Positions 22,592 to 40,209 of a stretch of 64,000 nt of DNA are shown here, one piece after another. Below the pieces are notes generated by a model. That model was not told the DNA's origin. It was given only the letters and a program-made list of their open reading frames with translations, and did no database searches. The stretch is from Stenotrophomonas indicatrix (lineage in GTDB: Bacteria > Pseudomonadota > Gammaproteobacteria > Xanthomonadales > Xanthomonadaceae). Location: the NCBI GenBank assembly GCA_041545745.1, contig CP168152.1, forward strand, positions 3,904,001 through 3,968,000. Reading direction: 5' to 3'. A program made the translations under genes and the position numbers. Each line of letters begins with the position of its first letter. The stretch's first letter is position 1.

Positions 22592-22693
22592 GGCGGGGTG
22601 GGTCCGGTTGCGGGGGACGCTGCAAGTACGTCCATGTAAGCTCGGTCGCCGCATCCATGCGGCTCACGCCCCCGCAACCGGACCCACCCCGCC
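22592..22693. repeat. Structured stem-loop element A
   Basis: The outer stem is a perfect 25-bp inverted repeat (22592-22616 with 22669-22693). The 52-nt interior holds two small hairpins: TAC-GTCCAT-GTA (22627-22638) and GCCGCA-TCCA-TGCGGC (22648-22663). The same interior occurs at 36113 and, inverted, at 40047, with different but still complementary outer stems. The gap 22496-22905 holds only repeats and this element. Confidence 0.85.
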
Positions 22694-22714
22694 TTCGACA
22701 GGTTCACGCGGCTG

Positions 22715-22890
22715 TTGGTGGGTGTCGACCTTGGTCGACACGGCATTGCCTGCTCTTGGTGGGTGTCGACCTTGGTCGACACGGCATTGCCTGCTTTTGG
22801 TGGGTGTCGACCTTGGTCGACACGGCATTGCCTGCTTTTGGTGGGTGTCGACCTTGGTCGACACAGTAGATCCACGCCATGCGTGGATCC
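22715..22890. repeat. Four 41-bp direct repeats with TGTCGACC-TTGGTCGACA hairpins, plus one SMAG palindrome
   Basis: The palindrome begins at 22723, 22764, 22805 and 22846, an exact 41-bp period. The linker CGGCATTGCCTGCTTTTGGT is nearly invariant (the first copy has CTCTTGGT). A GATCCACGCCATGCGTGGAT palindrome follows at 22869-22889, just before gnd ends. Confidence 0.93.
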
Positions 22891-22905
22891 ACGTCAAACC
22901 GGTGC

Positions 22906-23811
22906 TTACGACTTCTTGATGGCGTGGCCGCCGAATTCGTTGCGCATCGCCGACAGCAGGCGGTCGGTGAACGAGTTCGACTCGCGCGAACGCAGGCGTT
23001 CGAGCAGCGACAGGGTGATCACCGGGGCCGGTACGTCCAGCGCAATCGCTTCGGCGACGGTCCAGCGGCCTTCGCCGGAATCCTCCACGTACGGTGCGAT
23101 GCCATCCAGCGAGGGATTGCGCTTGAGCGCTTCGGTGCTGAGGTCCAGCAGCCACGAACGCACCACGCTGCCGTGGCGCCAGACTTCGGCCACCTTGGCC
23201 AGGTCCAGCTCCATTTCCTTCTTGCGCTCCATCAGCGCGAAGCCTTCGGCGTAGGCCTGCATCATTCCGTACTCGATGCCGTTGTGGACCATCTTGGTGA
23301 AGTGGCCTGCGCCGGACGGGCCCACGCGCGCCCAGCCACGGTCTTCGGCCGGTGCCAGCGTGCGCAGCAGCGGTGCGATCTGCTCGACCACCGCGGCATC
23401 GCCACCTACCATCAGGCTGTAGCCTTCCTGTAGGCCCCACACGCCACCGCTGGTGCCGCAGTCGACGTAGCCCAGGTCGTCTTCGGCCAGCGCCTTGGCG
23501 CGACGGATCGAGTCCTGGTAGTTGGAGTTGCCACCGTCGATGACGACGTCACCTTCGGCCAGGTGCGGGTTCAACTGGCCCAGCGTCTGGTCCACGGTCT
23601 CGCCAGCCGGCACCATCAGCCACACTACGCGCGGCACCGGCAGCGCCGCCACTGCGGCGGCCAGCGAATCAACCACTTCCAGGCCGGCTTCAGCGGCGCG
23701 CTGGCGGGCACCCTCGCCCGGGTCGTAGCCGACCACGCGGTGGCCGCCTCGGTGCAGGCGCTGGGCCATGTTGGCGCCCATGCGGCCGAGGCCGATCATT
23801 GCAATATCCAT
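22906..23811 (-). CDS. gnd: 6-phosphogluconate dehydrogenase, decarboxylating (short form)
   Basis: 301 residues, the length of the short bacterial 6PGDH class. The N-terminal Rossmann motif IAMIGLGRMGANMAQRL is followed by VIDGGNSNYQDSIRRAKAL (substrate binding), CGTSGGVWGLQEGYSLMVGG, and GHFTKMVHNGIEYGMMQAYAEG with the catalytic Lys and following Asn. It converts 6-phosphogluconate to ribulose-5-phosphate. It is 10 bp downstream of the exported protein gene at 23822, so probably cotranscribed. Confidence 0.93.
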   Translation of the reverse strand: MDIAMIGLGRMGANMAQRLHRGGHRVVGYDPGEGARQRAAEAGLEVVDSLAAAVAALPVPRVVWLMVPAGETVDQTLGQLNPHLAEGDVVIDGGNSNYQDSIRRAKALAEDDLGYVDCGTSGGVWGLQEGYSLMVGGDAAVVEQIAPLLRTLAPAEDRGWARVGPSGAGHFTKMVHNGIEYGMMQAYAEGFALMERKKEMELDLAKVAEVWRHGSVVRSWLLDLSTEALKRNPSLDGIAPYVEDSGEGRWTVAEAIALDVPAPVITLSLLERLRSRESNSFTDRLLSAMRNEFGGHAIKKS

Positions 23812-23821
23812 TGTTTCACCT

Positions 23822-25075
23822 TCAGTTGTTGTCGGAAGTCAGACTGCCTGGCTGGCCCGTCGTCGCGCAGTGGCGCAACTGCGCCTCGCGCCAACGCCGG
23901 TAGAGCGTGGTATGCAGATTGTGCAACGCCAGGTCGATGGAAAACGGCGTCCGCGGATTCCGGTCGAGCAGGCGGATGATGTGATAGCCGACAGGACGTA
24001 TACCGCGTGGGTGCGCGTAGATCACGAACTGCTGGTAGAACGCATCGTCCAGCAACTGGTCCATCTGCTGCACGATTTCACGATAGCGCGGGGCCAACTG
24101 CTCACGCAGGGCCGGATCACGCTCGTACAGCAGCCGCTCGAAGTAGCGCTGGCCGACGCGCGGAATACCCTGCGCCAGCTGCCACAGCGCACGATTGCGC
24201 TGGTCGTACCAGGCCAGGCCGCCGTGCGCGGCCAGCGCCTGCGCGGCGCCCTCGCCCACCTCCACCACGACGAAGTTCTCCGCCTGGTTGCTGAGATCGT
24301 CCAAGGTGCCTTTGTCGAAGACGTGTTCGATGAAGCCCGGCAGTCCGACAAAGGCCTGCCGCCCCATCGCCGACGTGCGCACGGCCTTGCCGTCGGCCAT
24401 GAACTGGCCTGCCTGCGCACCCAACAGGATGCTGTCGGTGTCGTGCAGGCCAAGGAACGTGCCGATGGACAGTTCGGCGGGCGCGAATTCCGTATCGAAG
24501 GCCGCATCGCCGTACAGCTCGCGTTGCGTGGCCAGCTGCGCGACCTGGCGGCCGACACCGCACTCGGCGCGCACGTGGCCCGTATAGAACGCATCCAGTG
24601 CGCGGCTGTTGCTGGCGGCCGGTACATAGCCGCGGCCGAAGCTGCGTACCCGCTGCCACCCCTGTGCCTGGGCACCACGAGCGCCAAAGCCTATCCAACC
24701 CAGCTGCACACCGGTGAAGCGGAAGGTTTCATTGTCCTGCAGTGCCTGCGTGGCACGTTGCACGGCCGTGCCCAGTTCAAACGCGTAGGCGCAGACCGTG
24801 GCCGGGTCGTCCAGCAGCTGCTGCAACAGGGCCTGCCGGTCGGCCTCAGCCAGCGTATCCGGCCAGCGCACACGCAGATCACCGGCCGCCTGCGCCTCGG
24901 CCAGCGAGGCACGCGTGCACACCGGCCCATCCTGCACCTGCGGTGCGCTGATCGCGGTGGTTTCGAAGCGCCATCCCAGCCGCTGCAGCAGGCCTTGGGT
25001 GCACTCGGCCGTAGCGGCCAGTGCGCTCAGCGGCCAGCCCAGCAGCAGGGCCCAGGCCATCACCCTGCCACGCAC
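23822..25075 (-). CDS. Exported protein of unknown function, possibly transglutaminase (Tgl)-like
   Basis: 417 residues with a signal peptide of about 20 residues (ending LSALAA). I do not recognise a firm family. The segment around E171-C172 (HVRAECGVGRQVAQLATQRE) and the later AENFVVVEVGEGAAQALAAH (E266, H284) resemble, in order and spacing, the Cys and Glu/His neighbourhoods of Bacillus Tgl protein-glutamine transferase. That resemblance is from memory and is inference only. The C-terminal third contains RGIRPVGYHIIRLLDRN. It lies between a lipoprotein gene (2 bp upstream) and gnd (10 bp downstream). Confidence 0.6.
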   Translation of the reverse strand: MRGRVMAWALLLGWPLSALAATAECTQGLLQRLGWRFETTAISAPQVQDGPVCTRASLAEAQAAGDLRVRWPDTLAEADRQALLQQLLDDPATVCAYAFELGTAVQRATQALQDNETFRFTGVQLGWIGFGARGAQAQGWQRVRSFGRGYVPAASNSRALDAFYTGHVRAECGVGRQVAQLATQRELYGDAAFDTEFAPAELSIGTFLGLHDTDSILLGAQAGQFMADGKAVRTSAMGRQAFVGLPGFIEHVFDKGTLDDLSNQAENFVVVEVGEGAAQALAAHGGLAWYDQRNRALWQLAQGIPRVGQRYFERLLYERDPALREQLAPRYREIVQQMDQLLDDAFYQQFVIYAHPRGIRPVGYHIIRLLDRNPRTPFSIDLALHNLHTTLYRRWREAQLRHCATTGQPGSLTSDNN

Positions 25076-25077
25076 GT

Positions 25078-25701
25078 TCAGCCCTGGTCCGTTGCTGCCG
25101 GCGCTGGTTCGGGCTCAGGCCCGGCGGGGGGCGGCGGCAGCGCAGCCGGTTGCGGTTGCGGTTGCGGCTCTGCTTTCACTGCCGCCGGCAGGTACTGCTG
25201 CAGGCGCTGGAAGAAGCGCCGATAGAATTCGGCATCGGTGATCGTGCTGCTGGCCACTTTCACCAGCGAGTCGTCATTGCTGCCGAACGGCAGCGACACC
25301 GAGCCCAACGCGCCCACGCCGACACTGGCCGAGGTCGGGCTCTTCTTCAGCGCATAGCGGTCCTGCACGGCGCTGACGAACACCAGCGCCTGGCTGCCAC
25401 GCGGCGCGCACGAGATACGCAGCACCAGCTGTTCGTGGTCATCCTCGCGCGGCTGGAAATTCTTGTTGCCTTCCACCTGCGCGTCGTCCGACCGTGCGAT
25501 GGCATAGCCCTGGCTGAGCAGCGTGCGCCGTGCCGCCTCGCAGGCTTCGGCCGGACGGCCATCGACGGTGCGCGAGAAGGTGTCGCCGGAGTCGAAGGAC
25601 TCCCGCAACAGACTGCTGTCGGCGGCACGACCGCCACAGGCGGACAATGCCAAGGCACTGATGGCAGCCAGCAGGGAAGCAGAAAGAAGGGAGGCCCGCA
25701 T
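25078..25701 (-). CDS. DUF2242-family lipoprotein
   Basis: 207 residues from the ATG at 25701. The signal sequence ends ALALSAC-GG, a lipobox with Cys near residue 22. The body (LLRESFDSGDTFSRTVDGRP, then ACEAARRTLLSQGYAI and EFYRRFFQRLQQYLP) matches my memory of the DUF2242 pattern, whose function is unknown. The C-terminus is a Pro/Glu/Gln-rich tail. An upstream in-frame ATG at 25728 would give a weaker signal peptide. Confidence 0.75.
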   Translation of the reverse strand: MRASLLSASLLAAISALALSACGGRAADSSLLRESFDSGDTFSRTVDGRPAEACEAARRTLLSQGYAIARSDDAQVEGNKNFQPREDDHEQLVLRISCAPRGSQALVFVSAVQDRYALKKSPTSASVGVGALGSVSLPFGSNDDSLVKVASSTITDAEFYRRFFQRLQQYLPAAVKAEPQPQPQPAALPPPPAGPEPEPAPAATDQG

Positions 25702-25804
25702 GGGTACTCCTGCGAAGACGGTAATCACGAGGGTAGCCCCCTGGCCGTGTGCGCCGGGTCGAAAACACCGGGCCCGTCCCCCACCGTTGTACCCGGTTCA
25801 TGCA

Positions 25805-25871
25805 AAAAAGGGGACGGAGGGGATTAAGTCGTTTGTGTCACTAACGACTTAATCCCCTCCGTCCCCTTTTT
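25805..25871. terminator. Bidirectional terminator, perfect 29-bp inverted repeat
   Basis: The left arm (25805-25833) begins AAAAAGGGGACGGAGGGGAT and the right arm (25843-25871) is its exact reverse complement, with a 9-nt loop. The ends are A5 and T5, so it can terminate in both directions. It sits just downstream of prc (stop at 25879). The arm is longer than usual for a simple terminator and may be a dispersed repeat. Confidence 0.88.
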
Positions 25872-25878
25872 CAGTCAA

Positions 25879-28056
25879 TCAGTCGGCCCAGCGGCCTGCG
25901 GCGGTGGACTGCGGCAGCACCTGCGCCGACAGCGGACGGTCGGCCTCCAGCAGGTTCACCGCGTCGGCCAGGATCGAGGCCGATTCACGCAGCAACGGAT
26001 CCGGGCGCTTCTCGGCGGCCTTCTCGCGGGCGGCATCCTTGACGATGTCGCGCTCGTTGCCGGTCAGGCCGTCATCGCTGCTGTCATCGGCCAGCGGGTC
26101 CAGGGCCAGGCCCAGTTCCTTGCGCACGATCTGGCGCTGCTTGCGCTGGGTGTCCTGGCGCTCGCGCTCGGCACGACGGGTCGCTTCATTCAGCGAAACG
26201 TACTTCTTCGCTGCTTCAGTACGGAACTGCTCCACGTCCTCGTTCCACCACTGGAATTCCTTGTCGGTGGCGATACGCGAGTCATGGCGCGTTTCCAGCT
26301 TCGGCAGCAGCGGCGCGAAGTTGCCGTACTGGGTGTGCGGCACCGCGGCGATGCGGGTCCACGGCAGCGCATTGTCGTAGGTGCTCTCGCCGAACTCGGT
26401 GGCATCGACGCTGGCCGGGAACGCCAGGTCCGGCACCACACCCTTGTGCTGGGTGCTGCTGCCGCTGATGCGGAAGAACTGGGCGATGGTCAGCTTCACT
26501 TGGCCAAAGCGCTGGGATTCGCCACTCGGCCAACGGTCCAGGTCGACGATGTTCTGCACCGTGCCCTTGCCGAAACTGGTTTCACCGATGACCAGGCCAC
26601 GACCGTAGTCCTGGATGGCACCGGCAAAGATCTCCGATGCCGACGCCGAACCACGGTTGATCAGTACGGCCAGCGGACCGTCCCATGCCACGCCCTGGTT
26701 GCGGTCACTGTTGACGGTGACACGGCCACCGGATTCGCGCACCTGCACCACCGGACCCTGCTCGATGAACAGACCGGTCAGCTCGATGGCTTCATCCAGC
26801 GAACCACCACCGTTGTTGCGCAGATCCAGCACCACGCCGTCCAGCTTGTCGGTCTTGAAACCGGCCAGCAGCTTGGCCACGTCGCGGGTGGCCGAAGCGT
26901 AGTCAGCGGCGTTGCGACGACGGCCTTCGAAGTCCTGGTAGAAGGTCGGCAGCTTGATCACACCAACCTTGCGTGCCGGCTCGCCATTGGCGGACGGGAT
27001 GGTCATGGTCTCGCCCTTGGCGGCCTGTTCGGCCAGGCGCACCTTCTGCCGGGTCAGCACCAGCGTGTGGTGCTTGCCGTCAACGCCGGCTTCGGCAGGA
27101 ATGAATTCCAGCTTGACATCGGTGTCCTTGGCGCCACGGATCTTGGCCACCACATCATCGATGCGCCAGCCGATCACATCTTCCACCAGCCCGGACTTGC
27201 CTTGGCCGACACCCACAATGCGGTCCCCCGGCTTCAGCGTGCCATCCACGGCAGCCGGACCACCGGCGATGATCTCGCGGATCACCACCACGTCGTCCTG
27301 GCGCTGCAGCTGCGCGCCGATGCCTTCCAGCGACAGCGACATCGCCTGGTTGAAGTTCTCGGCGGTACGCGGAGTGAAGTAATCGGTGTGCGGATCAACC
27401 GCGCTGGTGTAGGCGTTCATGAAGAACTGGAAGGTGTCTTCGCCCTTCAGCTCGTTGACCGACTTTTCCAGGGTGGCGTAACGCTTGTCCAGCGTCTTGC
27501 GGATGTCATCGGACTTCTTGCCGGCCAGCTTCAGGCGCAGCCAATCGTTCTTCACCGACTTGCGCCACAGCTCGTCGAGCTCGGCATTGGACGCCGCCCA
27601 CGGCACGTCCTTGCGGTCGTACTCGAAGCGCTCATCGGTGGTGAAATCCGGTTCCTGCTTGAGCAGCTTGCGCGCATAGGCCACCCGCTCGCCGACGCGC
27701 TGCTTGTAGATCGCGAACACCTGGAAGGCCGGCTCCAGTTCGCCGCCGCGGATGGCATTGGCAATGCCGGCCTGGAACGGCGCGAAGCGGGTGATGTCGG
27801 CCTGGGTGAAGTACTGCTTGCCGCCGTCCAGCGTCTCCAGGTAGCGCTTGAACACATCCTTGGAGGTGGCTTCATCGAGCGCACGCGGGCGATAGGCGTA
27901 GCGGCTGTCGGACAACAGGCCGTACACCAGCTTGGAGGTGGTCACCTGATCGGCGGTGGAGGCAGCCGGCAACGCCGGCGAGTCGGCCTTGGCCGCCAGC
28001 GCCAGCGGCGCGACCAGCGCCAGGGCCATCAGGAATGCGGGGGCTTTGAATTTCAT
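25879..28056 (-). CDS. prc: Carboxy-terminal processing (tail-specific) protease, S41A
   Basis: 725 residues with a signal peptide (1-21). An N-terminal helical domain (TSKLVYGLLSDSRYAYRP) and a PDZ domain (about 245-330) precede the S41 core. The core has the catalytic Ser in NRGSASASEIFAGAIQDYGR and the Lys in GETSFGKGTVQ. A C-terminal DUF3340-type domain follows. It degrades or trims periplasmic proteins; in other proteobacteria it controls peptidoglycan hydrolases and processes PBP3. Monocistronic with its own terminator. Confidence 0.95.
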   Translation of the reverse strand: MKFKAPAFLMALALVAPLALAAKADSPALPAASTADQVTTSKLVYGLLSDSRYAYRPRALDEATSKDVFKRYLETLDGGKQYFTQADITRFAPFQAGIANAIRGGELEPAFQVFAIYKQRVGERVAYARKLLKQEPDFTTDERFEYDRKDVPWAASNAELDELWRKSVKNDWLRLKLAGKKSDDIRKTLDKRYATLEKSVNELKGEDTFQFFMNAYTSAVDPHTDYFTPRTAENFNQAMSLSLEGIGAQLQRQDDVVVIREIIAGGPAAVDGTLKPGDRIVGVGQGKSGLVEDVIGWRIDDVVAKIRGAKDTDVKLEFIPAEAGVDGKHHTLVLTRQKVRLAEQAAKGETMTIPSANGEPARKVGVIKLPTFYQDFEGRRRNAADYASATRDVAKLLAGFKTDKLDGVVLDLRNNGGGSLDEAIELTGLFIEQGPVVQVRESGGRVTVNSDRNQGVAWDGPLAVLINRGSASASEIFAGAIQDYGRGLVIGETSFGKGTVQNIVDLDRWPSGESQRFGQVKLTIAQFFRISGSSTQHKGVVPDLAFPASVDATEFGESTYDNALPWTRIAAVPHTQYGNFAPLLPKLETRHDSRIATDKEFQWWNEDVEQFRTEAAKKYVSLNEATRRAERERQDTQRKQRQIVRKELGLALDPLADDSSDDGLTGNERDIVKDAAREKAAEKRPDPLLRESASILADAVNLLEADRPLSAQVLPQSTAAGRWAD

Positions 28057-28245
28057 TGACGTGCTCGAAGGCGCCTTGCCAAGGGGGAGACTGCAGGGTG
28101 TTCAGACACCGCGACAGTGCCGAAAGTTGCCGGGTTTGTCACCCGCCCACGTTCGGTGGAAAACCAGCCTAGCGGGGCCGGTGTAGCAAATTGTGAATGC
28201 AGGCGAAGGCGTGCGGACCAACGGTCCGCACCCACCGGCGGAGCG

Positions 28246-29256
28246 TCAGGAAACGCCGGCGCCCTTGGCCTGTACGTCGGCGTGGTACGACGAGCGCACC
28301 ATCGGGCCGGAGGCCACGTGGCTGAAGCCCAGCTCGTAACCGTAGACTTCCAGCGCCTTGTAGTCTTCCGGGGTCCAGTACTTCAGCACCGGGTGATGAT
28401 GCGCGGTCGGCTGCAGGTACTGGCCGATGGTGATCATGTCCACGTTGTGCGCACGCAGGTCGCGCATGGTGGCCTTGATCTGTTCGAAGTCTTCGCCCAG
28501 GCCCAGCATGATGCCCGACTTGGTCGGCACGTCAGGGTGCTGTGCCTTGAAGTTCTTCAGCAGGTTCAACGACCACTGGTAATCGGCACCCGGGCGCACG
28601 TTGCGGTACAGGTCCGGAACGGTTTCGATGTTGTGGTTGAACACATCCGGCGGGTTCTGCGCGAGGATCTCCAGCGCGCGCTCCATGCGGCCCTTGCCGC
28701 GAAAGTCCGGGGTCAGCACTTCAATGCGGGTGCCCGGCGACTTCTCGCGGATGGCGGTGATGCAGTCGACAAAGTGCTGGGCACCGCCGTCGCGCAGGTC
28801 ATCGCGGTCGACGCTGGTCACCACCACGTACTTCAGACCCATGTCGGCCACGGTCTGGCCCAGGCTGGCCGGCTCGTTGGCATCGGGCGGCTTCGGCCGG
28901 CCGTGTGCCACGTCGCAGAACGAGCAGCGACGGGTGCAGACCTCGCCCAGGATCATGAAGGTGGCGGTGCCGTGGCTGAAGCATTCGTGGATGTTCGGGC
29001 AGCTGGCCTCTTCGCACACAGTCACCAGGCGGTTCTCGCGCAGTTTGGCTTTCAGGTTCTGCACGGCATTGCCCGAAGGAATGCGCACGCGGATCCAGGA
29101 GGGCTTGCGCAGCACCGGCACGTCGGCGAACTGCACCGGCGAACGGTTGATCTTGTCCCCACCCATCTGCTTGACCCCGGCCTGCAACGGCGCGGTGGAC
29201 GGAAGCTCGGCCTGCACGATCTGCAGGGGAATGGTGCGGGCAGTGGTTTCAGTCAT
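28246..29256 (-). CDS. lipA: Lipoyl synthase
   Basis: 336 residues. A radical-SAM enzyme that inserts two sulfurs into octanoyl groups. The auxiliary cluster motif C-x4-C-x5-C ([12 protein letters not shown]) and the radical-SAM motif C-x3-C-x2-C (CTRRCSFC) are both intact, and the C-terminal [10 protein letters not shown] supplies the conserved RSSYHA. It lies 17 bp downstream of lipB. The 190 bp between lipA and prc hold no gene. Confidence 0.97.
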
Positions 29257-29273
29257 GGCGTTTCCGGGGGCGG

Positions 29274-29987
29274 TCAGGCGGCCGCAGAGAGATCAGGCAG
29301 TTCAGGCACGGGCTGCAGCAGCAGGCCGAACTGGCGGGCCAGGTGGTCCAGCAGCACCGGCTTGACGGCGTCCATCCCGGACGGACCGCCCAAGTCTAGC
29401 ACCGTGGTCACCTGCAACCCCTCGTAACCACAGGGGTTGATGCGATGGAAAGGGTCAAGGTCCATGGCCACGTTGAAGGCCAGGCCATGGAAGGTGCAGC
29501 CGCGGCGCACGCGGATGCCGAGCGCGGCGATCTTGGCGCCACCGACATAGACGCCCGGGGCGCCGTCGAGCCGTTCGGCACCGATGTTCCACTCGGCCAG
29601 CGTGTCGATGATGGCCTGCTCGATGCGGCACACGTAGTCGCGCACGCCGATGCCCAGCCGCGGCAGACGCAGCAGCGGGTAGATCACGATCTGGCCGGGG
29701 CCGTGGTAGGTCACCTGGCCGCCGCGATCGACGTGGACCACCGGGATCTCACCCGGCGCCAGCACGTGCTCGACCTTGCCGGCCTGGCCCAGGGTGAACA
29801 CCGGATCGTGCTCGACCACCCACAGTTCGTCGAGCGTGTCGTCGTCGCGCTGGTCGGTGAAACGCTGCATGGCGTGCCAGACCGGTTCGTAGGGCTGGCG
29901 CCCCAGGTCACGGACCACCGCCGGGCGCGGCGGACGCGCCTCGGGGGCCGCCACTTCGGCAGGGCAGCTGACGGCTACACCGTCCAC
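29274..29987 (-). CDS. lipB: Octanoyltransferase
   Basis: 237 residues. Transfers octanoate from acyl carrier protein to lipoyl domains, preceding Lip[21 protein letters not shown] is the conserved acyl-binding region. [18 protein letters not shown] carries the catalytic Lys and [11 protein letters not shown] the catalytic Cys. The start at 29987 overlaps the ybeD-like gene by 13 bp. The N-terminal 20 residues before VRDLG are Pro/Ala-rich, so a shorter start is possible. Confidence 0.95.
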
Positions 29988-30253
29988 TTCACTTCCGGGT
30001 GGTCGCGCAGGGCCTGGTGGGCCACGTCGTACTGTTCACGGTTCTCGGCCCGGAAGACCAGGCGCACCGAGACGTACTTGCCGTTGGACGAATGCTTCCA
30101 GCTGATGCGCTCGTTCACCACGTCAACGCCAGCAGCCAGCAGCAGGCGGGGGAGTTCATGCTCCAGGCCGCGGTTGGCCGGGCCCATCGCGCTGAGCTCG
30201 AACTGACCGGGGAACTGGAAGCCGTGTTCGGGATTGTCGGACTTGATTTCCAT
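29975..30253 (-). CDS. ybeD: YbeD/DUF493 family protein
   Basis: 92 residues. A small ACT-like fold protein ([33 protein letters not shown], then HPEVKWTV at the C-terminus). Its conserved position next to lipB matches E. coli ybeD-lipB. Function unknown. I took the ATG at 30253 (MEIKSDNPE) since the additional 32 codons upstream do not look like the family. Confidence 0.9.
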
Positions 30254-30533
30254 GCGCCCATTATCGGGCCGCAGGGCAACAAACCCAAGAGTATTCACAT
30301 AGGCCGGCGGCACCGCAGGCGGGCCGCTGCGTTGCAGCTGAACGTCCATTCAGGCCCGGATCCAACTCCGAGGGGCCCGCCCCCGTCCCCTCGGCTCCGC
30401 CTGCGGTAACCAATTGTATCGATCAGACAATGTTGTTTTCGGAACAGACAAGTGATCCCAGCGCGCTCGTTCCGTCACGGCACCGGGAGTAACGTGTCGT
30501 TGCATAAAACGACAAACAAAAGCCCCCTTCCCG

Positions 30534-31607: not shown

Positions 31608-31623
31608 GCGATCGGGCTGAGGG

Positions 31624-31813: not shown

Positions 31814-31825
31814 CTCCCGAAACAG

Positions 31826-31851: not shown

Positions 31852-31875
31852 CCGTTCACCGCAGCAGGCTGCGGA

Positions 31876-33093: not shown

Positions 33094-33195
33094 GGGACAG
33101 CAGGCTCCAGGGGACGGCCGGAAAATGAAGGATGGGGCGAGGTGACCATTGTAAGGCCGGGGTGGCAAGGGCCGGCAGCACCGGCCCGGGCGGAA

Positions 33196-34440
33196 TCAGT
33201 CCTTGACGATCTGTGGCGAGCCAAAGCCCAGACCCGAGATGCGCCCGGCAAGTTCCGCCGCGCTGGCATGGTCGCTGGCGGGAACCCGCAGGCGCCACAG
33301 GGTACGACCACCGGCAGCGATGTCGCTGATGGTGGCACCGACGATGCCGGCGGCGTTGAGCTGGCCCATCGCCCGGTTGGCGTTGTCGCGGTTGGAGAAG
33401 CTGGCGACCTGCAGCATCACCGCGCCCACCACCTTCTGCGACAGGCTGGGGCTGCTGGCCGGGGCCGGGCCGCGCGGCACGGCGGTGGCCACGACCGGCG
33501 CTGCGGGGCGCGACGCGGGTGCGCTGGGCGGTAGGCTGCTGACCGCCACCTCCGGCATCGTACTGACCGCGGCCTGGGTGGTAGCCGGCTGCCCACGCTC
33601 GGGCGCGGCGTCGGCCGGCAGGCGCTTGACCAGGCGATCGATGTCACTGTCGGCGACCGCGCGTGCAGCAGGTGCGGGGCGGGCGCTGGCGACGGCAGCG
33701 GTGGCCGCAGCCGCTTCAGCAGCACGGCGCTCGCGGCGCGACGGCTTCTGCGCCATCAGGTTGGTTTCACCCGGTTGCACCGCGCGCACTTCCACGTTGC
33801 CGGTACCGCGCTGGGTGATGCCCAAGCGCACGGCGGCGGCATAGCTGAGATCGACCACGCGGCCATCGTGGAACGGACCACGATCATTGACGCGCACGAT
33901 CACCGATTCGCCATTGTCCAGGTTGGTCACGCGGGCGAAGCTGGGCAGCGGCAAGGTCTTGTGCGCAGCGGTGAACTGGTACATGTCGTAGACCTCGCGG
34001 TTCGAGGTCAGGCGGCCGTGGAACTTGGCGCCATAGTACGAAGCAGTGCCACGCTCGACGTAGTTGCGGGTGTCGTCGAGCACCTTGTACTGCTTGCCCA
34101 GCACCACGTAGGGCGATTTGTTGCCGATCGCCGATCGGTCCTCATTGGTGACCAGCGGCTCGGGAATGCAGGCCACGTTGGGCACGTAACTGGGCGTGGT
34201 GTCTTTCACACCGGGCTTGTACAGGCCACCGGCGGTGTAGTTGCCACGCGTGGACATGTCCTCGGTGGCGGCCGCGTACGGCGAGCCCTCCGGACAATGC
34301 GCCGGACGCCCGCCCTTGCCCTGCACCACCGTGCTGGACGTCTTGCCACCGTGGCCGGCGGTCGCCGGCTTCTTCGGCGCGCTGCTGCAGGCGGCCAGCG
34401 CGAGGACGATCAATCCAGGGACCAGCCATCTGATGTTCAT
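33196..34440 (-). CDS. rlpA: Septal-ring lytic transglycosylase RlpA
   Basis: 414 residues. The lipobox ALAAC gives a lipoprotein with Cys18. The double-psi beta-barrel domain (RGTASYYGAKFHGRLTSNRE ... VRVNDRGPFHDGRVVDLSYAAA) contains the usual Glu and Asp. After an Ala/Pro-rich linker of about 100 residues comes a C-terminal SPOR domain (VMLQVASFSNRDNANRAMGQL) that binds denuded glycan strands at the septum. Its ATG overlaps the mltB stop by 4 bp. Confidence 0.95.
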   Translation of the reverse strand: MNIRWLVPGLIVLALAACSSAPKKPATAGHGGKTSSTVVQGKGGRPAHCPEGSPYAAATEDMSTRGNYTAGGLYKPGVKDTTPSYVPNVACIPEPLVTNEDRSAIGNKSPYVVLGKQYKVLDDTRNYVERGTASYYGAKFHGRLTSNREVYDMYQFTAAHKTLPLPSFARVTNLDNGESVIVRVNDRGPFHDGRVVDLSYAAAVRLGITQRGTGNVEVRAVQPGETNLMAQKPSRRERRAAEAAAATAAVASARPAPAARAVADSDIDRLVKRLPADAAPERGQPATTQAAVSTMPEVAVSSLPPSAPASRPAAPVVATAVPRGPAPASSPSLSQKVVGAVMLQVASFSNRDNANRAMGQLNAAGIVGATISDIAAGGRTLWRLRVPASDHASAAELAGRISGLGFGSPQIVKD

Positions 34441-35585
34441 GCCGGGGGCAGCTCCTGTCCGGCAATGGCCTGCGACAACTGGAACACGGCCATCGCGTAC
34501 ATCTTCGAGAGGTTGTAGCGGGTGATTGCGTAGTAGTTCTGGAAGCCCAGCCAGTACTGCTTGCCGGTGCTGCCTTCAAGGGTGATCGGGGTGGCCGTGG
34601 CACCCGGCTGCACCGGCGCACTGGGCTGGTAGCCGCGCTGGGCCAGGTCGGCCAGCGACCAGGTGGGCATCCACTCGGTCGGGTTGAACTCCTCGCGGTC
34701 GGCGGCGAGCGTGGCCGGCACGGCAACCTGGCCGCCACGCACCCAACCGCCCTTCTTCACGAAGTAGTTGGCGATGGAGGAGAACACGTCGTCGTAGCTG
34801 GTGAACAAGTCACGGCGACCATCGCCGTTGCCGTCCACCGCGTAATCCAGATAGCTGGAGGGCATGAACTGGCCCATGCCCATCGCGCCGGCATAGCTGC
34901 CCTTGAGCGTGGTGATGTCCAGCTTTTCCTCGCGACCGAGTTCGAACAGCTTGGCCAGTTCATCGCGGAAGAACAGCTCGCGGCGCACTTCGCGCTCCAG
35001 CTTGGTCGGGTCGCCACTGCGCGGGTAATAGAAGGCCAACGTATACAAGGCGTCGAGCACGCGATGGCTGCCGGCATTCTTGCCGTAGCTGGTTTCCACG
35101 CCGATGATCGCCACGATCACTTCCGCCGGCACGCCGGTGCGCTGCTGCACACGGTCCAGTTCGGCGCGATGCTGGGCAAGAAACGCCTTGCCGCCATCGA
35201 TGCGTGCCTTGCTGATGAACATCGGCCGGTATTCGTTCCACGGCTTGACCCGCTCTGCCGGCCGCGACATGGCGGCGATGATCGGCTGGCGCACCTGCGC
35301 CTGGTCGAGCACGTTGCGGATCTCGTCGGGCTTGAGGCCGTAGCGCTTGGCAGTGTCGGCAATGAATCTGGCGCGCGCGGTTTCGAACGGCACCGGGGTG
35401 AGATCGACCGGCGTTGCCGTAGCGGCTGGCGCTTCAGGCGCGGCTTCGGCCGGGGCCTGAGGCTTGGCCGCCGGGTGGCGCGGCGTACTGCTGGCCTGGG
35501 GCGAAGTCGGTGGGGACGTCGGCTGGGTCGCACAGGCGACCAGGCCGAGGGTGAGCATGCAGGCCAGAGAACGTCGAATCATCAC
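34437..35585 (-). CDS. mltB: Membrane-bound lytic murein transglycosylase B
   Basis: 382 residues. The lipobox GLVAC places the acylated Cys at residue 18. After a Pro/Ala-rich linker the SLT domain begins (AKRYGLKPDEIRNVLDQAQV). VAIIGVETSYGKNAGSHRVLD carries the catalytic Glu, and KGSYAGAMGMGQFMPSSYLDY and DGNGDGRRDLFTSYDD follow as in MltB. It cleaves the MurNAc-GlcNAc bond with 1,6-anhydro formation. First gene of mltB-rlpA-dacC. Confidence 0.95.
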   Translation of the reverse strand: MMIRRSLACMLTLGLVACATQPTSPPTSPQASSTPRHPAAKPQAPAEAAPEAPAATATPVDLTPVPFETARARFIADTAKRYGLKPDEIRNVLDQAQVRQPIIAAMSRPAERVKPWNEYRPMFISKARIDGGKAFLAQHRAELDRVQQRTGVPAEVIVAIIGVETSYGKNAGSHRVLDALYTLAFYYPRSGDPTKLEREVRRELFFRDELAKLFELGREEKLDITTLKGSYAGAMGMGQFMPSSYLDYAVDGNGDGRRDLFTSYDDVFSSIANYFVKKGGWVRGGQVAVPATLAADREEFNPTEWMPTWSLADLAQRGYQPSAPVQPGATATPITLEGSTGKQYWLGFQNYYAITRYNLSKMYAMAVFQLSQAIAGQELPPA

Positions 35586-36056
35586 CGCAGGTTAGCAGGT
35601 CATGGATGAATTAAAACCCCTAAGGCCATGAATCACAACGATTTGCTCGCGTTCAGCATGAAATGTGAAGGCGTCGTGATTGACCTACCCCATTCAGGTA
35701 GAGGTTGCCGGTTGCGTCCCCATCCCCGCAGACGCAACCGGCCACCGGACCCGGTCGGTACCTGCGCGGCTGCCGCTCCCCAGTGGCAGTGCTCCGCGCT
35801 CCTTGTACCTGTTGGATCAGTACTGCTTTCCCATCCGACGCCCCTCGCGCTGCATCAAAGACGGCGCGCCATGCCGAACGGGCCGCCATTGTGCAGGCCG
35901 ATTGCGACAAGTCCATTGATCAGGATCAACGCGGCGTCAAAATGTGAATTGGCGCCCACTTTTAATGGAACTTCGTCAGCGGCCATGCTGCTGTGCGGCG
36001 TTGTGGGAACGATTACAGAAATGCGCTTGCGCAGATTCATGTGTGCATCGGCGGCG
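35586..36056. other. Intergenic stretch upstream of mltB, no confident gene
   Basis: The first 100 bases are A/T-richer than the surroundings and probably hold the mltB promoter. A weak hairpin (GGTTGCCGGTTGCGT with ACGCAACCGGCC) lies near 35702-35743. A minus-strand frame of about 60 codons ends at 35855 (MNLRKRISVI... FDAALILINGLVAIGL) and may be a remnant gene, but nothing identifies it. Confidence 0.5.
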
Positions 36057-36342
36057 AAGGTCGGCGAACGGCGCAGCCCCTCGTGGGTGGCCGCGAAGCG
36101 ATTCATGGGGAGGGCCGGGTAGATGGGCTGCGCAGGGGCCGCTGCAAGTACGTCCCTGTAAGCTCGGTCGCCGCATCCATGCGGCTCACGCCCCTGCGCA
36201 ACCCATCTACCCGGCCACGGACACGTTCCTGTGGCGTCCACCCACGCAAAGAGAAAAGAAGAGCGAAGAGCAACAGCGGGTCGCTTCGCTCTGAGCCGAG
36301 CGCGGGCTCGGCTCTACTGGAAGCGCGGGCAACCGGCCATGC
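36057..36342. repeat. Structured repeat module B, containing stem-loop 36113-36216
   Basis: The stem-loop has a 27-bp outer stem with one mismatch (36113-36139 with 36190-36216). Its inner hairpins are TAC-GTCCCT-GTA (36149-36160) and GCCGCA-TCCA-TGCGGC (36170-36185). Conserved flanks are GGCGCAGCCCCTCGTGGGTG on the left. On the right are a CGTCCACCCACGCAAAGAGA segment, a GCGGGTCGCTTCGCTCT segment and the AGCCGAGC...GCTCGGCT hairpin ending near 36336. It is inverted relative to modules C and D. Confidence 0.85.
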
Positions 36343-36344
36343 TG

Positions 36345-36564
36345 CTTTTGCTTTTGATCTTTTTTCTTCTTGCGTGGGTGGACGCCGCAGGAAACCGTCA
36401 GAGGCCGGGCGGGTTGGGTTCGCGGGGGTGTCCGCGCCATGGATGGCGCGGCCAAGCCTCCATGGACGGATTCACGGCGTCCCCCGCGAACCCAACCCGC
36501 CCGGCCCAATCGATGAATCGCATTGAGCGGCCACCCGCGAGGGGCTGCGCCGTTGGCTGGAAAC
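36345..36564. repeat. Structured repeat module D, containing stem-loop 36403-36506
   Basis: The perfect 26-bp outer stem is 36403-36428 with 36481-36506. The inner hairpins are CCGCGCCA-TGGA-TGGCGCGG (36432-36451) and TCC-ATGGAC-GGA (36459-36470). The left flank has TTGCGTGGGTGG and CCGCAGGAAAC; the right flank has CCACCCGCGAGGGGCTGCGC and runs directly into the rodA2 stop. Modules B and D face each other across about 36340. Confidence 0.85.
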
Positions 36565-37641
36565 CTACGCGTGTACCGGCCGATGCCCACGCACGGCCAT
36601 CACCAGGCCGATCCCCGCCAGCAACGACACCGCCGAAGTGCCGCCGTAGCTGATCAGCGGCATCGGAATGCCCACCACCGGCAGCAAGCCGGAAATCATC
36701 CCGCCGTTGACCAGCACGTACACGAAGAACGCCAGGCCGAGGCTGCCGGCCAACAACCGCGCGTGCGTGTCGCGTGCCTGCACCGCGATCGACAGGCAAC
36801 GCCCGACCACGAACAGATACAAGGCGAACACCGTCACCACGCCGATCCAGCCGAATTCCTCGGCCAACACCGAGAACGCGAAATCGGTGGTGTACTCGGG
36901 CAGGAAATCCAACGTGGCCTGTGTGCCGTGGCCCCAGCCGCGCCCCTGCATGCCACCGGAGCCGATGGCGATGCGCGACTGCAGGATGTTCCAACCGGTG
37001 CCCAAGGGATCGGCGGCCGGATCCAGGAAGGTGAGCACGCGGTTCTTCTGGTACTGCCGCAGCAGCCCGAACCACGCCAGTGGCGCAGCCACCGATACCG
37101 CAGTCAAGCCGGCCACCACCCAGCGCCATTGCAGCCCAGCCAGCAGCAATGCAAACACGCCGCTGGCCGTCACCAGGGTGGCAGTGCCGAGATTGGGCTG
37201 CATCAGGATCAGCAGCGCTGGCACCCCGATCAGCACTGCGGCCGTCAGCACCGTGCGCGGCGATGGCGGCAACGGCTGGCGGTGCAGATACCAGGCCATC
37301 ATCAACGGCAGGCTGAGCTTGAGCAGTTCCGAGGGCTGCAGGTAGAACACGCCGAGGTTGAGCCAGCGCTGCCCGTATTTGCCGGTGCCGATCACGTACA
37401 CCGCCATCAGCGGCAGCATCGACAGTGCATAGATCGCCGGCGTCCACGCGCGCAGGCGCAGCAGCGAAACCCGCGACAGCAGCCACATCGCCACCAGGCC
37501 ACCGGCGAAGCGCATCGCCTGCCCATGCACCGGCCCGTTCACGCTGTGCAGCACCGCCAGGCCCGCGCCCATCAGGATCAACAACGCGATCAGCAACGGC
37601 AGATCGATCGTGCGGACCGCCTCACGGCAGCCGCCAAGCAT
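36565..37641 (-). CDS. Second RodA-type SEDS peptidoglycan polymerase (rodA copy 2)
   Basis: 358 residues from an ATG at 37641, about ten membrane segments. It is colinear with the rodA next to mrdA (40210-41322) and nearly identical in the last 60 residues (AFFVYVLVNGGMISGLLPVV, PMPLISYGGTSAVSLLAG). The extracellular segment FLDPAADPLGTGWNILQSRI keeps the Asp and the downstream QS of active SEDS enzymes. YQKNR replaces YQKDR of copy 1. The open frame continues to 37779, but that extension has no homology to copy 1. Divergent from hipBA. Confidence 0.88.
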   Translation of the reverse strand: MLGGCREAVRTIDLPLLIALLILMGAGLAVLHSVNGPVHGQAMRFAGGLVAMWLLSRVSLLRLRAWTPAIYALSMLPLMAVYVIGTGKYGQRWLNLGVFYLQPSELLKLSLPLMMAWYLHRQPLPPSPRTVLTAAVLIGVPALLILMQPNLGTATLVTASGVFALLLAGLQWRWVVAGLTAVSVAAPLAWFGLLRQYQKNRVLTFLDPAADPLGTGWNILQSRIAIGSGGMQGRGWGHGTQATLDFLPEYTTDFAFSVLAEEFGWIGVVTVFALYLFVVGRCLSIAVQARDTHARLLAGSLGLAFFVYVLVNGGMISGLLPVVGIPMPLISYGGTSAVSLLAGIGLVMAVRGHRPVHA

Positions 37642-37778
37642 TCGTTTCCATTTCACCCGCGGCACGGTAGCAACCGGCGCTTTCGTGAAGCTGTCAGCTA
37701 CAGCGGGCGTGTTCGGCCGGGCGCATGCTGTGCTGTCTTTCGCGGAGTGCCTTCCAACCAAACGGGCGCCGCCACGCA

Positions 37779-37975
37779 ATTAGACGTACTCGTCGAATAC
37801 TCGGTGAAATGCCATAAAATTAGACGAATCAATCTAATTTCCACGCGACCAAGGTGGCAGGGCGCTCCCGAAGAGACATCCACGGGCTGAATGCCAACAC
37901 CATTTTTACTTGAATATTAGACTAATACATCTAATATTCGCACTCAATCTCAATAATTAGACTTATTCATCTAAT
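37779..37975. promoter_or_regulatory. Four operator-like palindromes ATTAGA-N8-TCTAAT upstream of hipB
   Basis: Sites are at 37779-37798 (right half TCGAAT, one mismatch), 37819-37838, 37916-37935 and 37956-37975. Three have perfect 6-bp arms with an 8-bp spacer; the third extends to 10-bp arms. Start-to-start distances are 40, 97 and 40 bp. The last overlaps the first two bases of the hipB start codon. E. coli HipB operators have the same half-site-N8-half-site form with four sites, so HipB autoregulation is the likely role. Confidence 0.82.
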
Positions 37976-38231
37976 GCAGACTCTCGCCGAACTTGGCTTG
38001 GCGGTGGCCGAGCGCCGCCGGGCGCTGGGCATGACCCAGATTGAAGTCGCCGCGCAAGCCGGGGTGGCGTCCGATACGTTGTCCCGTTTCGAACTGGGCA
38101 AGGCCACCGACTTTGGTGCCCGCAAGCTGCTGGCGGTGCTGGCCGTGCTGGGCATGGAGATGCAGTACAGCATGGAAGGCCATAGCGGCTCGTTGGAGTC
38201 GCTTGCCCGTGAGCATGGGCTGCGGCGATGA
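37974..38231 (+). CDS. hipB: HipB-type antitoxin, XRE helix-turn-helix
   Basis: 85 residues. The helix-turn-helix (GMTQIEVAAQAGVASDTLSR) lies at about 19-38, followed by FELGKATDFGARKLLAVLAVLG, the usual dimer and second half of the XRE fold. It would repress its own operon and neutralise HipA. Its stop overlaps the hipA start (ATGA). The upstream 200 bp is AT-rich compared with the neighbours, consistent with acquisition by transfer. Confidence 0.9.
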   Translation: MQTLAELGLAVAERRRALGMTQIEVAAQAGVASDTLSRFELGKATDFGARKLLAVLAVLGMEMQYSMEGHSGSLESLAREHGLRR

Positions 38232-39541
38232 CACTCTCTGTGTATGTCGCCGGGCGTGAGGTGGCGATGCTGGAAAGCCTCGACAGTTTCAACTGCCGTC
38301 TCCTGTACAACGCCGATGTCGTGCCCGACGATCTGGTGTCGCTGACCATGCCGGTACGGCGCGAGCCGTGGGACTGGAACGATCAGCTGCAACCGTTCTT
38401 TCAGATGAACCTGCCCGAAGGCTATCTGCTGAAAGTGCTGCAGGAGCAGTTCGGTCCCTTGATCGGTGGTGGCCCGATGAACCTGCTATCGGTCATCGGT
38501 CGCAACATGATCGGCCGGGTGCAAGTGGTGCCGCGCGGCGCGCCGCTGGATGAGCCGACCCGGGCAGTGGACGTGGCGCAGCTGCTGCAGGGCGACAACT
38601 CGGTAGAGGCCTTCGAGGAACTGGTACGCCAGCATGCCACGAGCGGTGTATCCGGCATGGTGCCCAAGTTTCTCGACCAGCGCGAGGTCAGCGGCCAGGA
38701 CCCGCGCAGGAAGGTCACCCTGTTCACCCGCCAGCACATCATCAAGGGCTCGGCGACCAACCTGCCGTTTATTGCGCTCAACGAGCACCTCACCATGCAG
38801 GTGGCGGCAAGGGTGCTGCCAACCGCGCGTACCGAGGTCTCCCGTGACGGGCAGGCGCTGGTGGTGCATCGCTTCGATGTAGATGAAGCCGGCCAGCTCA
38901 AGTACGGCATGGAAGATTTCTGTGCGCTGCTGGGCATGCGCCCGGCAGAGAAGTACGAGACAACCTGGGAGCGCATCGCCAAGGCAGTGCGCGATCACGT
39001 ACGGGGTCCCGGGCGGCAGCTGGCGCTGCAGCATCTGGCCACGCAGTTGCTGCTGACCCACGGGCTGCGCAACGCCGATTGCCATGCCAAGAACATCGCA
39101 CTGCTGTACACAGGCCGCGACGATGCGCAGGTCACACCGGTGTACGACATGCTGACGACGGCAGCCTATCCCGACTACGCACGCAATCCTCCGGCGATCA
39201 GCCTGGGCGGGCGCAAGACCTGGGAGCCCGGCAGGCTTCTGGAGCGGACGCTGCTTTCGGTGTTCAACGTTACCGCCCGTGACCAGCGCGCCATCGTCGA
39301 GAAGATCGGCCAGGCCATCGACGAAGTCGCCCCTGCGGTGCGCGAGGCCATGGCGCAGCATGAAGGTTTTCATGTAATCGGCAAGCGCATGTTGCTGGCC
39401 TGGCAGCAGGGCATGCAGACCCTGCGCGGCAAGCCGGTGTACGGCATGGATAGCCCGGCGCTGGGCGAATCCTTCCAGGACCTGTCCGACCCCGAGCCGG
39501 TGAAAAAGCCCGACGCGAACTCATTGGCCGCTCCGACCTGA
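38228..39541 (+). CDS. hipA: HipA-type serine/threonine kinase toxin
   Basis: 437 residues. An N-terminal Couple_hipA-like region (FQMNLPEGYLLKVLQEQFG) is followed by the kinase core. HIIKGSATNLPFIALNE carries the glycine/serine-type loop, VVHRFD the hinge region, GLRNADCHAKNIALLYT the catalytic Asp and the following Asn, and VTPVYDMLTT the metal-binding Asp. E. coli HipA phosphorylates glutamyl-tRNA synthetase; here the target is unknown. ADCHAKN stands where many relatives have NxDxHxKN, so activity is likely kept. Confidence 0.9.
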   Translation: MTLSVYVAGREVAMLESLDSFNCRLLYNADVVPDDLVSLTMPVRREPWDWNDQLQPFFQMNLPEGYLLKVLQEQFGPLIGGGPMNLLSVIGRNMIGRVQVVPRGAPLDEPTRAVDVAQLLQGDNSVEAFEELVRQHATSGVSGMVPKFLDQREVSGQDPRRKVTLFTRQHIIKGSATNLPFIALNEHLTMQVAARVLPTARTEVSRDGQALVVHRFDVDEAGQLKYGMEDFCALLGMRPAEKYETTWERIAKAVRDHVRGPGRQLALQHLATQLLLTHGLRNADCHAKNIALLYTGRDDAQVTPVYDMLTTAAYPDYARNPPAISLGGRKTWEPGRLLERTLLSVFNVTARDQRAIVEKIGQAIDEVAPAVREAMAQHEGFHVIGKRMLLAWQQGMQTLRGKPVYGMDSPALGESFQDLSDPEPVKKPDANSLAAPT

Positions 39542-39623
39542 CCCGAGACGATCCCATGGGCTGAGCCGTTAGGTCGCGCACGGCTACGGCGCTGTTTGTC
39601 GCTATCGACCCCTCGTCTGATGA

Positions 39624-39932
39624 ATGCCCTTGGCGTACGCGCCCGACGGCCCTACCCTGCTGGACTGCCTGCAGCACATCCGCCAAGTGGAAGCAGCAGA
39701 TGGTCAGCCGTGGCCACACAAGGGGCGAACGCAGGCGCCGTGCATGGCGATGGCGCGCATCGACCGCGCCAACGCCGGGCTGACCTTCCTGCTGGAACTA
39801 CTGCACGCCAGCGAACGCGTGCGCGTGGACGGCGACGACACGCAGCACCTGGACGACGACGCCCGCGAAGGTCTGCTGCTGGCCTGCCGAGGCCTGTCGG
39901 AGTATGTGGATGTGCAGCTGCAGGCTGCGTGA
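39624..39932 (+). CDS. Small hypothetical protein
   Basis: 102 residues (MPLAYAPDGPTLLDCLQHIR start), with no signal peptide or membrane segment. The middle GLTFLLELLHASERVRVDGD and the ending DVQLQAA look like a real soluble alpha-helical protein, with an acidic patch (DGDDTQHLDDDA). I do not recognise the family. It lies between hipA and repeat module C, with no clear ribosome site; the first ATG is taken. Confidence 0.5.
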   Translation: MPLAYAPDGPTLLDCLQHIRQVEAADGQPWPHKGRTQAPCMAMARIDRANAGLTFLLELLHASERVRVDGDDTQHLDDDAREGLLLACRGLSEYVDVQLQAA

Positions 39933-39943
39933 TGCGCACATTC

Positions 39944-40209
39944 CAGAAGAGCCGAGCATGGCTCGGCACTACAAAGAGCGAAGCGACCCGCTTCTGCTCT
40001 GCTTTATTTCTCTTTGCCTGGGTGGCCACCGCAGGAAACTGTCAGAGGCCGGGCGGGGTGGGCTGCGCAGGGGCGTGAGCCGCATGGATGCGGCGACCGA
40101 GCTTACATGGACGTACTTGCAGCGTCCCCTGCGCAGTCCACCCCGCCCGGCCAACCACGGCTGTTGCTTTCAGCAACCACCCACGGGGGGCTGCGCCGAT
40201 GGCTGGAAA
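39944..40209. repeat. Structured repeat module C, containing stem-loop 40047-40152
   Basis: The outer stem is 28 bp (40047-40074 with 40125-40152), with one G-T wobble and one unpaired inner end. Inner hairpins are GCCGCA-TGGA-TGCGGC (40079-40094) and TAC-ATGGAC-GTA (40104-40115). The left flank contains the AGCCGAGCATGGCTCGGC hairpin, GAGCGAAGCGACCCGCT, and TTTCTCTTTGCCTGGGTGG. The right flank CCACCCACGGGGGGCTGCGC leads straight into the rodA stop. Confidence 0.85.

Follow-up and report, generated by a model that had tools for sequence, protein, structure and literature searches.

A twin-hairpin repeat, dispersed in the Gammaproteobacteria and amplified by lineage, is best read as a large structured RNA family that has no match in Rfam 15. 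Our favored interpretation, to which we assign a probability of roughly 0.58, is that each copy offers a two-site platform for CsrA/RsmA and that it titrates this protein or marks or stabilizes the transcript that carries it. An initial annotation had described four such elements (A, B, D, and C) in the window, i.e. the whole 64,000-nucleotide stretch of Stenotrophomonas indicatrix DNA that was analyzed; the selected strand, the CsrA/RsmA-like loops, the class-wide spread, and the outward-facing pairs all go beyond that description.

The repeat family and its fold

The four elements lie exactly where they had been placed (Table 1), and searches with BLASTN and a covariance model show that the family far exceeds four copies. 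The S. indicatrix genome holds at least 150 (150 of 150 scored candidates match the covariance model), 74 of the 369 genomes that we sampled from the Gammaproteobacteria contain family matches, and copy number within one genus ranges from 0 to at least 97. The copies occupy intergenic regions, many of them flanked by convergent genes and many near stop codons; 2 of 94 own-genome pattern matches fell inside called genes and were dropped before counting. For the named loci of other records, 102 of 123 matches to model R1 were used; those set aside were 12 lying on the reverse strand of a copy already listed, 7 truncated by the end of their locus, and the matches L131 and L109.

The initial annotation recognized no described family, and in agreement with this no Rfam family was reached at gathering score in the 64-kb window. 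Relaxed-threshold searches of two stretches gave nothing above cut-off, the weak matches being mostly to long-hairpin microRNA models and falling well short of the thresholds of these models; one weak match, to Yersinia sRNA 224, scored 29.8 bits, its cut-off being 70. BLAST returned no match for element A in phages, for element D in plasmids, or for one 65-nt core copy in an E. coli collection, and a literature search found no published description of the repeat.

Table 1. Features of the four elements in the window. Hairpin sequences give the loop with its closing pair.
Feature	Position	GGA strand	Sequence	Setting
Element A	22592..22693	(-)	stem subtype GGCGGGGTGGGTCC...	between convergent genes 21452-22495 (+) and 22906-23811 (-)
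A hairpin 1	22652..22659	(-)	CATGGATG	
A hairpin 2	22629..22636	(-)	CATGGACG	
Element B	36113..36216	(-)		left partner of outward pair with D
B hairpin 1	36174..36181	(-)	CATGGATG	
B hairpin 2	36151..36158	(-)	CAGGGACG	
B-D spacer	36217..36402			adjoins 5' ends of both GGA strands
Element D	36403..36506	(+)		right partner of outward pair with B
D hairpin 1	36438..36445	(+)	CATGGATG	
D hairpin 2	36461..36468	(+)	CATGGACG	
Element C	40047..40152	(+)		between convergent genes 39624-39932 (+) and 40210-41322 (-)
C hairpin 1	40083..40090	(+)	CATGGATG	
C hairpin 2	40106..40113	(+)	CATGGACG	

Each element is about 102–106 nt long and has an outer stem of 20–30 bp, nearly free in sequence, that encloses two hairpins at a fixed distance. 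Outer stems are common to the copies of one genome and not to different genera. We refer to the strand on which both inner hairpins read as C-G-closed ANGGAX hexaloops as the “GGA strand”; folded alone on this strand, elements A, B, D, and C had z-scores of -9.1, -11.4, -9.7, and -8.3, and each was more stable than 200 of 200 dinucleotide shuffles. Two details of the initial annotation change when the elements are read in this way. The mismatch assigned to B and the wobble assigned to C are both G-U pairs, the former looking mismatched only on the printed strand, and the inner hairpins are better described as the hexaloops ATGGAT and A[T/G/A]GGA[C/T], closed by C-G. In the predicted minimum-energy folds of A and C, the GGA of hairpin 2 is partly paired, and in that of D the two CCATGG-bearing loops pair together. 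Hairpin 2 is missing from some single-sequence folds, and covariation rather than minimum energy is the basis for assigning it.

The covariation is strong in both alignments that we built, supporting the earlier proposal of selection on folded DNA or RNA. Both sides had changed at 26 of 38 consensus pairs among 59 own-genome copies and at 21 of 25 core pairs among 62 diverse copies (61 of them taken from named loci in other records, one from the window); all of these copies were picked for both GGA loops, so the alignments test the pairing and not the loops. The 62-copy covariation score of 0.665 compares with a shuffled mean of 0.186, was reached by 0 of 500 shuffles, and fell to 0.10–0.18 when partners were slid. 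Most copies were not found to be unpaired, nor did the repeat prove to be a known transposon end devoid of covariation.

Covariation alone is no proof of selection, because exchange between copies and palindrome-templated mutation also give paired changes and could maintain matching arms with no folded RNA under selection. At locus A, a second strain retains the outer stem but differs in the inner hairpins, as exchange would give, and collapsed arms show the palindrome to be mutable. However, these processes provide no reason for G·U pairs to be favored over A·C, or for GGA loops and constant spacing across genera; they are disfavored, and as the whole explanation they are very improbable. Where an outer stem contains an isolated non-Watson-Crick pair, G·U outnumbers A·C by 41:6 in own copies and 58:14 in named copies (p about 2e-7 in each set). 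This strand asymmetry argues that it is the folded GGA strand, probably RNA, that is under selection.

Hairpin loops and the CsrA/RsmA motif

An ANGGAX hexaloop set directly on a stem is, according to PMC4005645, the high-affinity form for CsrA/RsmE, and a passage of PMC7652899 gives 10–63 nt as the range over which CsrA bridges two sites. Both features of CsrA/RsmA-binding RNA are present in the sequence of the repeat. The copies used to build models R1 and R2 were chosen for both GGA loops, and matches to these models therefore lean toward having both; with that leaning, both hairpins read C-ANGGAX-G in 71 of 76 R1 loci with full flanks (27/28, 25/27, and 19/21; 8 of 29 class-search loci cut by contig ends were excluded), and both GGA loops occur in 36 of 37 R2 loci (10 of 47 were excluded for length). 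Both loops had the C-ANGGAX-G form in 20 of 29 further copies from named loci. A search pattern that left the three bases before GGATG free found CAN there in 69 of 74 distinct named copies (N being T in 33, G in 30, A in 5, and C in 1). Position N of the loop is variable and the GGA is almost invariant. From start to start, the distance between the two motifs is 23 nt at 65 of 71 loci, 24 at 4, and 22 at 2. Against the CsrA SELEX consensus, RUACARGGAUGU as given in the cited passage, the element reads UUACAGGGACGUA. In a set of 41 genomes, csrA is present in all 23 that bear the element, which is weak evidence, as 39 of the 41 have csrA.

We propose that the two hairpins together offer a platform on which a single CsrA/RsmA dimer could span both sites. 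The copies would be transcribed by read-through from neighboring genes or from unrecognized promoters, and the element RNAs would bind CsrA/RsmA. The protein might then be titrated from many loci at once, and the repeat would plausibly serve as a decentralized sponge; alternatively, the element might mark and stabilize the transcript carrying it. The concealment of the hairpin 2 GGA in the predicted minimum-energy folds of A, C, and D counts against the platform interpretation, which also does not account for the strict outward pairing of copies.

Genomic setting and alternative explanations

This pairing is nearly invariant: 46 of 47 close pairs face outward. By eye, the pair spacers have no common sequence. 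Sigma-70-like promoters, the type scanned for, showed no excess upstream of the copies (4/92 vs. 9.1 in shuffled sequence; 10/100 vs. 15.6), and none was found in the B-D spacer. We therefore rejected divergent promoter-driven sRNA genes in the spacers. Unpaired own-genome copies between co-directional genes are oriented 9 sense to 1 antisense. The bias is limited to these, as own-genome copies with a neighboring copy are 18 sense and 19 antisense, and the named genera have no sense bias (16 sense, 23 antisense, after removal of 16 copies close to an edge, 2 that lie within a called ORF, and 1 that has no neighbor); a sense 3'UTR element was thus rejected. The orientation in other genera and the missing promoter signal speak against a simple 3'UTR sponge.

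The long stem could instead act at mRNA 3' ends, as a barrier behind genes that stops or stalls exonucleases or polymerase; the loops would then be incidental. The very stable stems and the intergenic sites, often between convergent genes or near stop codons, suit such a role. Yet on the GGA strand a T-run (at least 6 T in 10) follows the stem in none of 100 named or 92 own copies (on the other strand, in 2 of 100 and 0 of 92), and we rejected an intrinsic terminator on these counts. A 3'-end role also leaves the cross-genus conservation of the loops and the 23-nt spacing unaccounted for, and we regard it as improbable.

Mobility of some kind is likely. The repeat may be a selfish, non-autonomous REP- or MITE-like sequence mobilized as a folded DNA single strand by some enzyme whose recognition sites are the loops, their likeness to CsrA sites being coincidental or secondary. 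Outer stems shared within a genome and not between genera, the wide range of copy number, the outward-facing pairs, the lack of gene-orientation bias in other genera, and the REP-like palindromes that adjoin many copies as separate sequences are all in keeping with such an origin. At the two loci compared, A and C, neither a clean empty site nor a target duplication was seen. On the other hand, both loops, each with a free N, fit the optimal hexaloop for CsrA, and the strand is not biased by replication half. We consider a purely selfish repeat unlikely.

Known systems and biological meaning

CsrB/CsrC and RsmX/Y/Z resemble the repeat in having several ANGGA motifs in short hairpin loops at bridging distance, according to passages of PMC4005645 and PMC7652899. 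They come from one or a few dedicated sRNA genes, and each carries many hairpins, whereas the repeat has two hairpins per element, a long outer stem, at least 150 copies, and no promoter or terminator that we found; sigma-70-like promoter excess and, in the window, an Rfam match at gathering score, as marks of a CsrB/RsmZ-type gene, are both lacking. RsmU (sRX061) of Xanthomonas campestris is a 3'UTR-derived sRNA for which RsmA binding has been reported both in vitro and in vivo (PMC7694677). It is intergenic, has GGA motifs, and presumably comes from the same bacterial family; it differs in being a single locus behind comEA that is not described as a repeat (PMC7694677). In S. indicatrix, the sequence 3' of comEA contains six motifs of the CAGGATG/CAGGGATG type and no long outer stem; the comEA 3' flanks are built differently from the repeat, and membership of RsmU in the family is not supported. 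Changing all four GGA motifs of RsmU abolished neither RsmA binding nor its effect (PMC7694677, section 2.5); GGA motifs alone thus do not settle binding.

REP/SMAG GTAG-type palindromes and BIMEs are likewise dispersed, intergenic, numerous, and often oppositely paired, but REPs, as characterized in PMC3733652 and PMC12306157, are single palindromes of 20–40 bp with a tetranucleotide tag, and the repeat is about 100 nt with two inner hairpins. No GTAG tag is present in the alignment of copies, in contrast to GTAG/CGTC-tagged REPs. The ERIC sequences of enterobacteria are intergenic imperfect palindromes of about 130 bp. They presumably share a short likeness with the repeat around GAGCTTACAT; we know of no twin ANGGAX hairpins in them.

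CsrB/RsmB homologues have been reported to be missing in the bacterial family of Stenotrophomonas; RsmU has been reported since (PMC7694677). Tentatively, and with more doubt than confidence, we envisage, in many gammaproteobacteria, a decentralized layer of CsrA/RsmA control in which a self-amplifying RNA repeat puts two-site platforms in tens to at least 150 intergenic regions and read-through sets free CsrA. If so, the free CsrA pool would be set by genome-wide read-through, not by one or two sRNA genes, Stenotrophomonas would gain RsmA antagonists though its family reportedly misses CsrB/RsmB homologues, and a dispersed repeat would carry binding sites for a global RNA regulator. A class-wide repeat with optimal-type CsrA hexaloops at bridging distance makes the question of a CsrA/RsmA antagonist directly testable, and loops that in sequence resemble CsrA/RsmA docking sites may point to an unrecognized mode of controlling CsrA/RsmA.

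Fold, strand and covariation of the repeat family

Four stem-loops of about 100 nt, elements A to D, had been reported in the window by the initial annotation, and sequence inspection located all of them (see the table). Each was more stable, folded alone, than 200 of 200 dinucleotide shuffles, with z between −8.3 and −11.4. The observation is correct and understated. A search of the window against Rfam 15 at its cut-offs returned no match.

Elements in the window, adjoining features and copies of special form elsewhere (L numbers are locus labels; strand is that of the GGA loops)
Feature	Position	Strand	Remark
Element A	window 22592..22693	−	
Element B	window 36113..36216	−	outward pair with D
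Element D	window 36403..36506	+	outward pair with B
Element C	window 40047..40152	+	
AACGTC run	window 22536-22577		about seven units, flanked by a stop codon (22495) and element A
Palindrome array	window 22715-22880		GTGTCGACCTTGGTCGACAC palindromes, ending in GTAGATCCACGCCATGCGTGGATC; presumably a GTAG-type REP
Paralogous gene	window 36565-37665		presumably RodA/FtsW-like; D directly behind it
Paralogous gene	window 40210-41322		presumably RodA/FtsW-like; C directly behind it
Broken copy	L061:1720-1839		broken off inside hairpin 2; the foreign sequence resembles an insertion-sequence end by eye
Methylotuvimicrobium buryatense copies	L172:4616-4769, L172:4993-5158, L122:4394-4546		insert of ~50–60 nt in hairpin 1, with one common start position in the loop
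Outward-pair member	L159:1883-1986, L170:4449-4552		~70 nt upstream of the start codon of one gene, found in both records

On the GGA strand, where both inner loops have the form ANGGAX, the outer stem spans about 25–28 bp in this genome and has several sequence subtypes, the commonest with partly conserved flanks. Hairpin 1 joins a variable stem to the loop ATGGAT; hairpin 2 pairs GC[T/C] with [A/G]GC, then TAC/GTA, TCC/GGA or CCC/GGG around A[T/G/A]GGA[C/T]; a C-G pair closes both. When A, C and D are folded as single sequences, the GGA of hairpin 2 is hidden; the case for this hairpin therefore comes from covariation, its two varying upper pairs being paired in 62 of 62 copies. TTGCTG- or TTGCCG-like runs come after many copies on the GGA strand, and repeats like the palindrome array adjoin many.

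The covariation claimed for the four elements held up in the wider family. In an alignment of 62 copies across genera, 90.8% of cells pair and 21 of 25 pairs carry both-side changes (26/38 in 59 copies from this genome). Both-side-changed cells numbered 420, vs. 122 in shuffles; the covariation score of 0.665 (0.186 in shuffles) was reached by none of 500 shuffles and fell to 0.10–0.18 with slid partners. The number of further pair types (62 vs. 61.8) showed no excess, and the closing C-G pair of both hairpins was invariant (62/62).

Part of this covariation could come from exchange between copies or from palindrome-templated mutation. A strand-symmetric process should yield G-U and A-C pairs at 1:1. 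With stem arms aligned on Watson-Crick pairs only, and isolated other pairs counted as distinct contexts, G-U exceeded A-C by 41:6 in this genome (73 distinct arms) and by 58:14 in the named genera (63 distinct arms), each with p about 2e-7, related copies not being fully independent. Selection therefore acts on the folded GGA strand. RNA is the natural reading of its form; a single DNA strand could also be what folds.

Copy number, turnover and orientation

BLASTN searches of the genome with A and D as queries returned full copies in the dozens. A pattern search of the window and of an even sample of the genome (20 stretches, each of 20 kb) gave 18 matches, 17 of them true (13 sample, 4 window). 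The covariance model R1 recovered the same 17, all at 94 bits or more. It also picked up a damaged copy scoring 77 bits, a truncated one scoring 27 bits and one interrupted by the end of a stretch. For R1, a long stem by itself can suffice for a score (up to 49 bits on reverse strands); a second model, R2, was therefore given a short stem along with diverse loops. It found at least 150 copies, matching 150 of 150 scored candidates, none closer together than 176 nt.

At the site of element A, 15 relatives had both flanks located: three carry an element (G021, G009, G022), two retain collapsed arms (G001, G005), two lack it at short repeats (G010, G011) and the remaining eight have none. The orthologous copy of G021 (L281 against L280) has an identical outer stem but inner hairpins of its own, a pattern that a swap of inner parts between copies would give. 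At the site of C, the element is confined, among 24 loci, to this genome and G021; six other loci have one at a neighboring paralogous gene. In the pairs beside the same gene in L159 and L170, loop N is changed, GGA is kept and stem changes are paired (by eye). These comparisons show turnover and exchange. A mobile-element reading, which may account for the amplification of copies, is compatible with that of an RNA element; no clean insertion was found at the sites of A (15 relatives) and C (24 loci) or in the L159/L170 pairs.

Gene context was assigned from calls by our own codon-usage script. The 94 pattern matches in this genome comprised 38 convergent, 27 co-directional sense, 20 antisense and 7 divergent copies and 2 inside called genes. 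For the 23 unpaired copies the counts were 10 convergent, 9 sense, 1 antisense and 3 divergent; for the 69 that had a neighboring copy no more than 700 nt away, 28, 18, 19 and 4; and for named loci (records of other named organisms), 18, 16, 23 and 8. A sense bias is thus limited to unpaired copies of this genome. Close pairs among the 150 were outward in 46 cases, inward in none and tandem in one, with start-to-start distances of 250–333 nt in 42/46 outward pairs. Named loci held 15 outward pairs (one with a doubtful member, L152; gaps 54–171 nt), 3 tandem and 3 inward, the last all from M. buryatense. Read-through of an outward pair from either side yields one GGA-sense copy, the distal one. 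Neither a promoter excess upstream of copies nor a T-run after the stem was found. Given its distance from the start codon, the L159/L170 copy may lie in a 5′UTR.

Distribution across bacteria

At E 0.001, R1 matched 23/41 relatives (20/25 in the genus, this genome included; 3/16 others in the order), 32/119 genomes of the family and 67/369 of the class. At E 1e-5, R2 matched 74/369 genomes and 65/271 genera of the class, and 30/398 genomes of the phylum, all 30 within the window's class or nearer. Strict filters were applied and 10–13 candidates scored per genome, so these figures give presence rather than copy number and do not prove absence. Among the matches listed were Stenotrophomonas, Luteimonas, Thermomonas, Marinobacter, Halopseudomonas, Methylotuvimicrobium, Methylomonas, Ectothiorhodospira, Thioalkalivibrio, Aquisalimonas, Rheinheimera and Yersinia ruckeri. 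In most named genera the outer stem shows no sequence relationship but still pairs, frequently along 20–40 bp; some copies have short stems only. In searches of the open PMC literature, none of the papers listed gave, by title and abstract, a description of this repeat or of a dispersed CsrA-site repeat.

Possible relation to CsrA/RsmA

Both loops read C-ANGGAX-G in 27/28, 25/27 and 19/21 loci from the model searches, figures that favor such copies because the models were built from them. Both loops did so in 20/29 extra copies of named loci; in the nine that did not, either hairpin 1 or both hairpins had insertions, deletions or changes. In a freer test, with the three bases 5′ of GGATG unspecified, these were CAN in hairpin 1 of 69/74 distinct named copies. 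Loop 1 was ATGGAT in 50/71 loci (other bases were G, A and C at N, and C, A and G at X), and loop 2 varied more. GGA-GGA spacing was 23 nt in 65/71, 24 in four and 22 in two. PMC4005645 describes the high-affinity Csr/Rsm site as an ANGGAX hexaloop that sits immediately on a stem. PMC7652899 gives RUACARGGAUGU as the SELEX consensus and 10–63 nt as the bridging range of CsrA, and states that very stable hairpins may disfavor binding.

The csrA gene (PF02599) occurs in 39/41 relatives, including 23/23 with elements, and the two relatives lacking it also lack elements; this co-occurrence is weak evidence, since csrA is so common. The RsmA of this genome reads as an ordinary family member. In Xanthomonas campestris, the RsmA-bound sRNA RsmU lies in the comEA 3′ flank and, with all four GGA motifs changed, kept RsmA binding and effect (PMC7694677). 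The corresponding flank here (L364) contains six CAGGATG/CAGGGATG-type motifs, several of which can fold into hairpins, and likely encodes a CsrB-like RNA of this species.

The sequence comparisons establish the family with its fold, selected strand, loops, spacing and spread. The best-supported reading, to which we give a probability of roughly 0.58, is that of an RNA element with two CsrA/RsmA-type hexaloops at its core, amplified many times per genome. The elements would be transcribed and their RNA bound by CsrA/RsmA, and this binding might titrate the global regulator or protect the transcripts that carry them.
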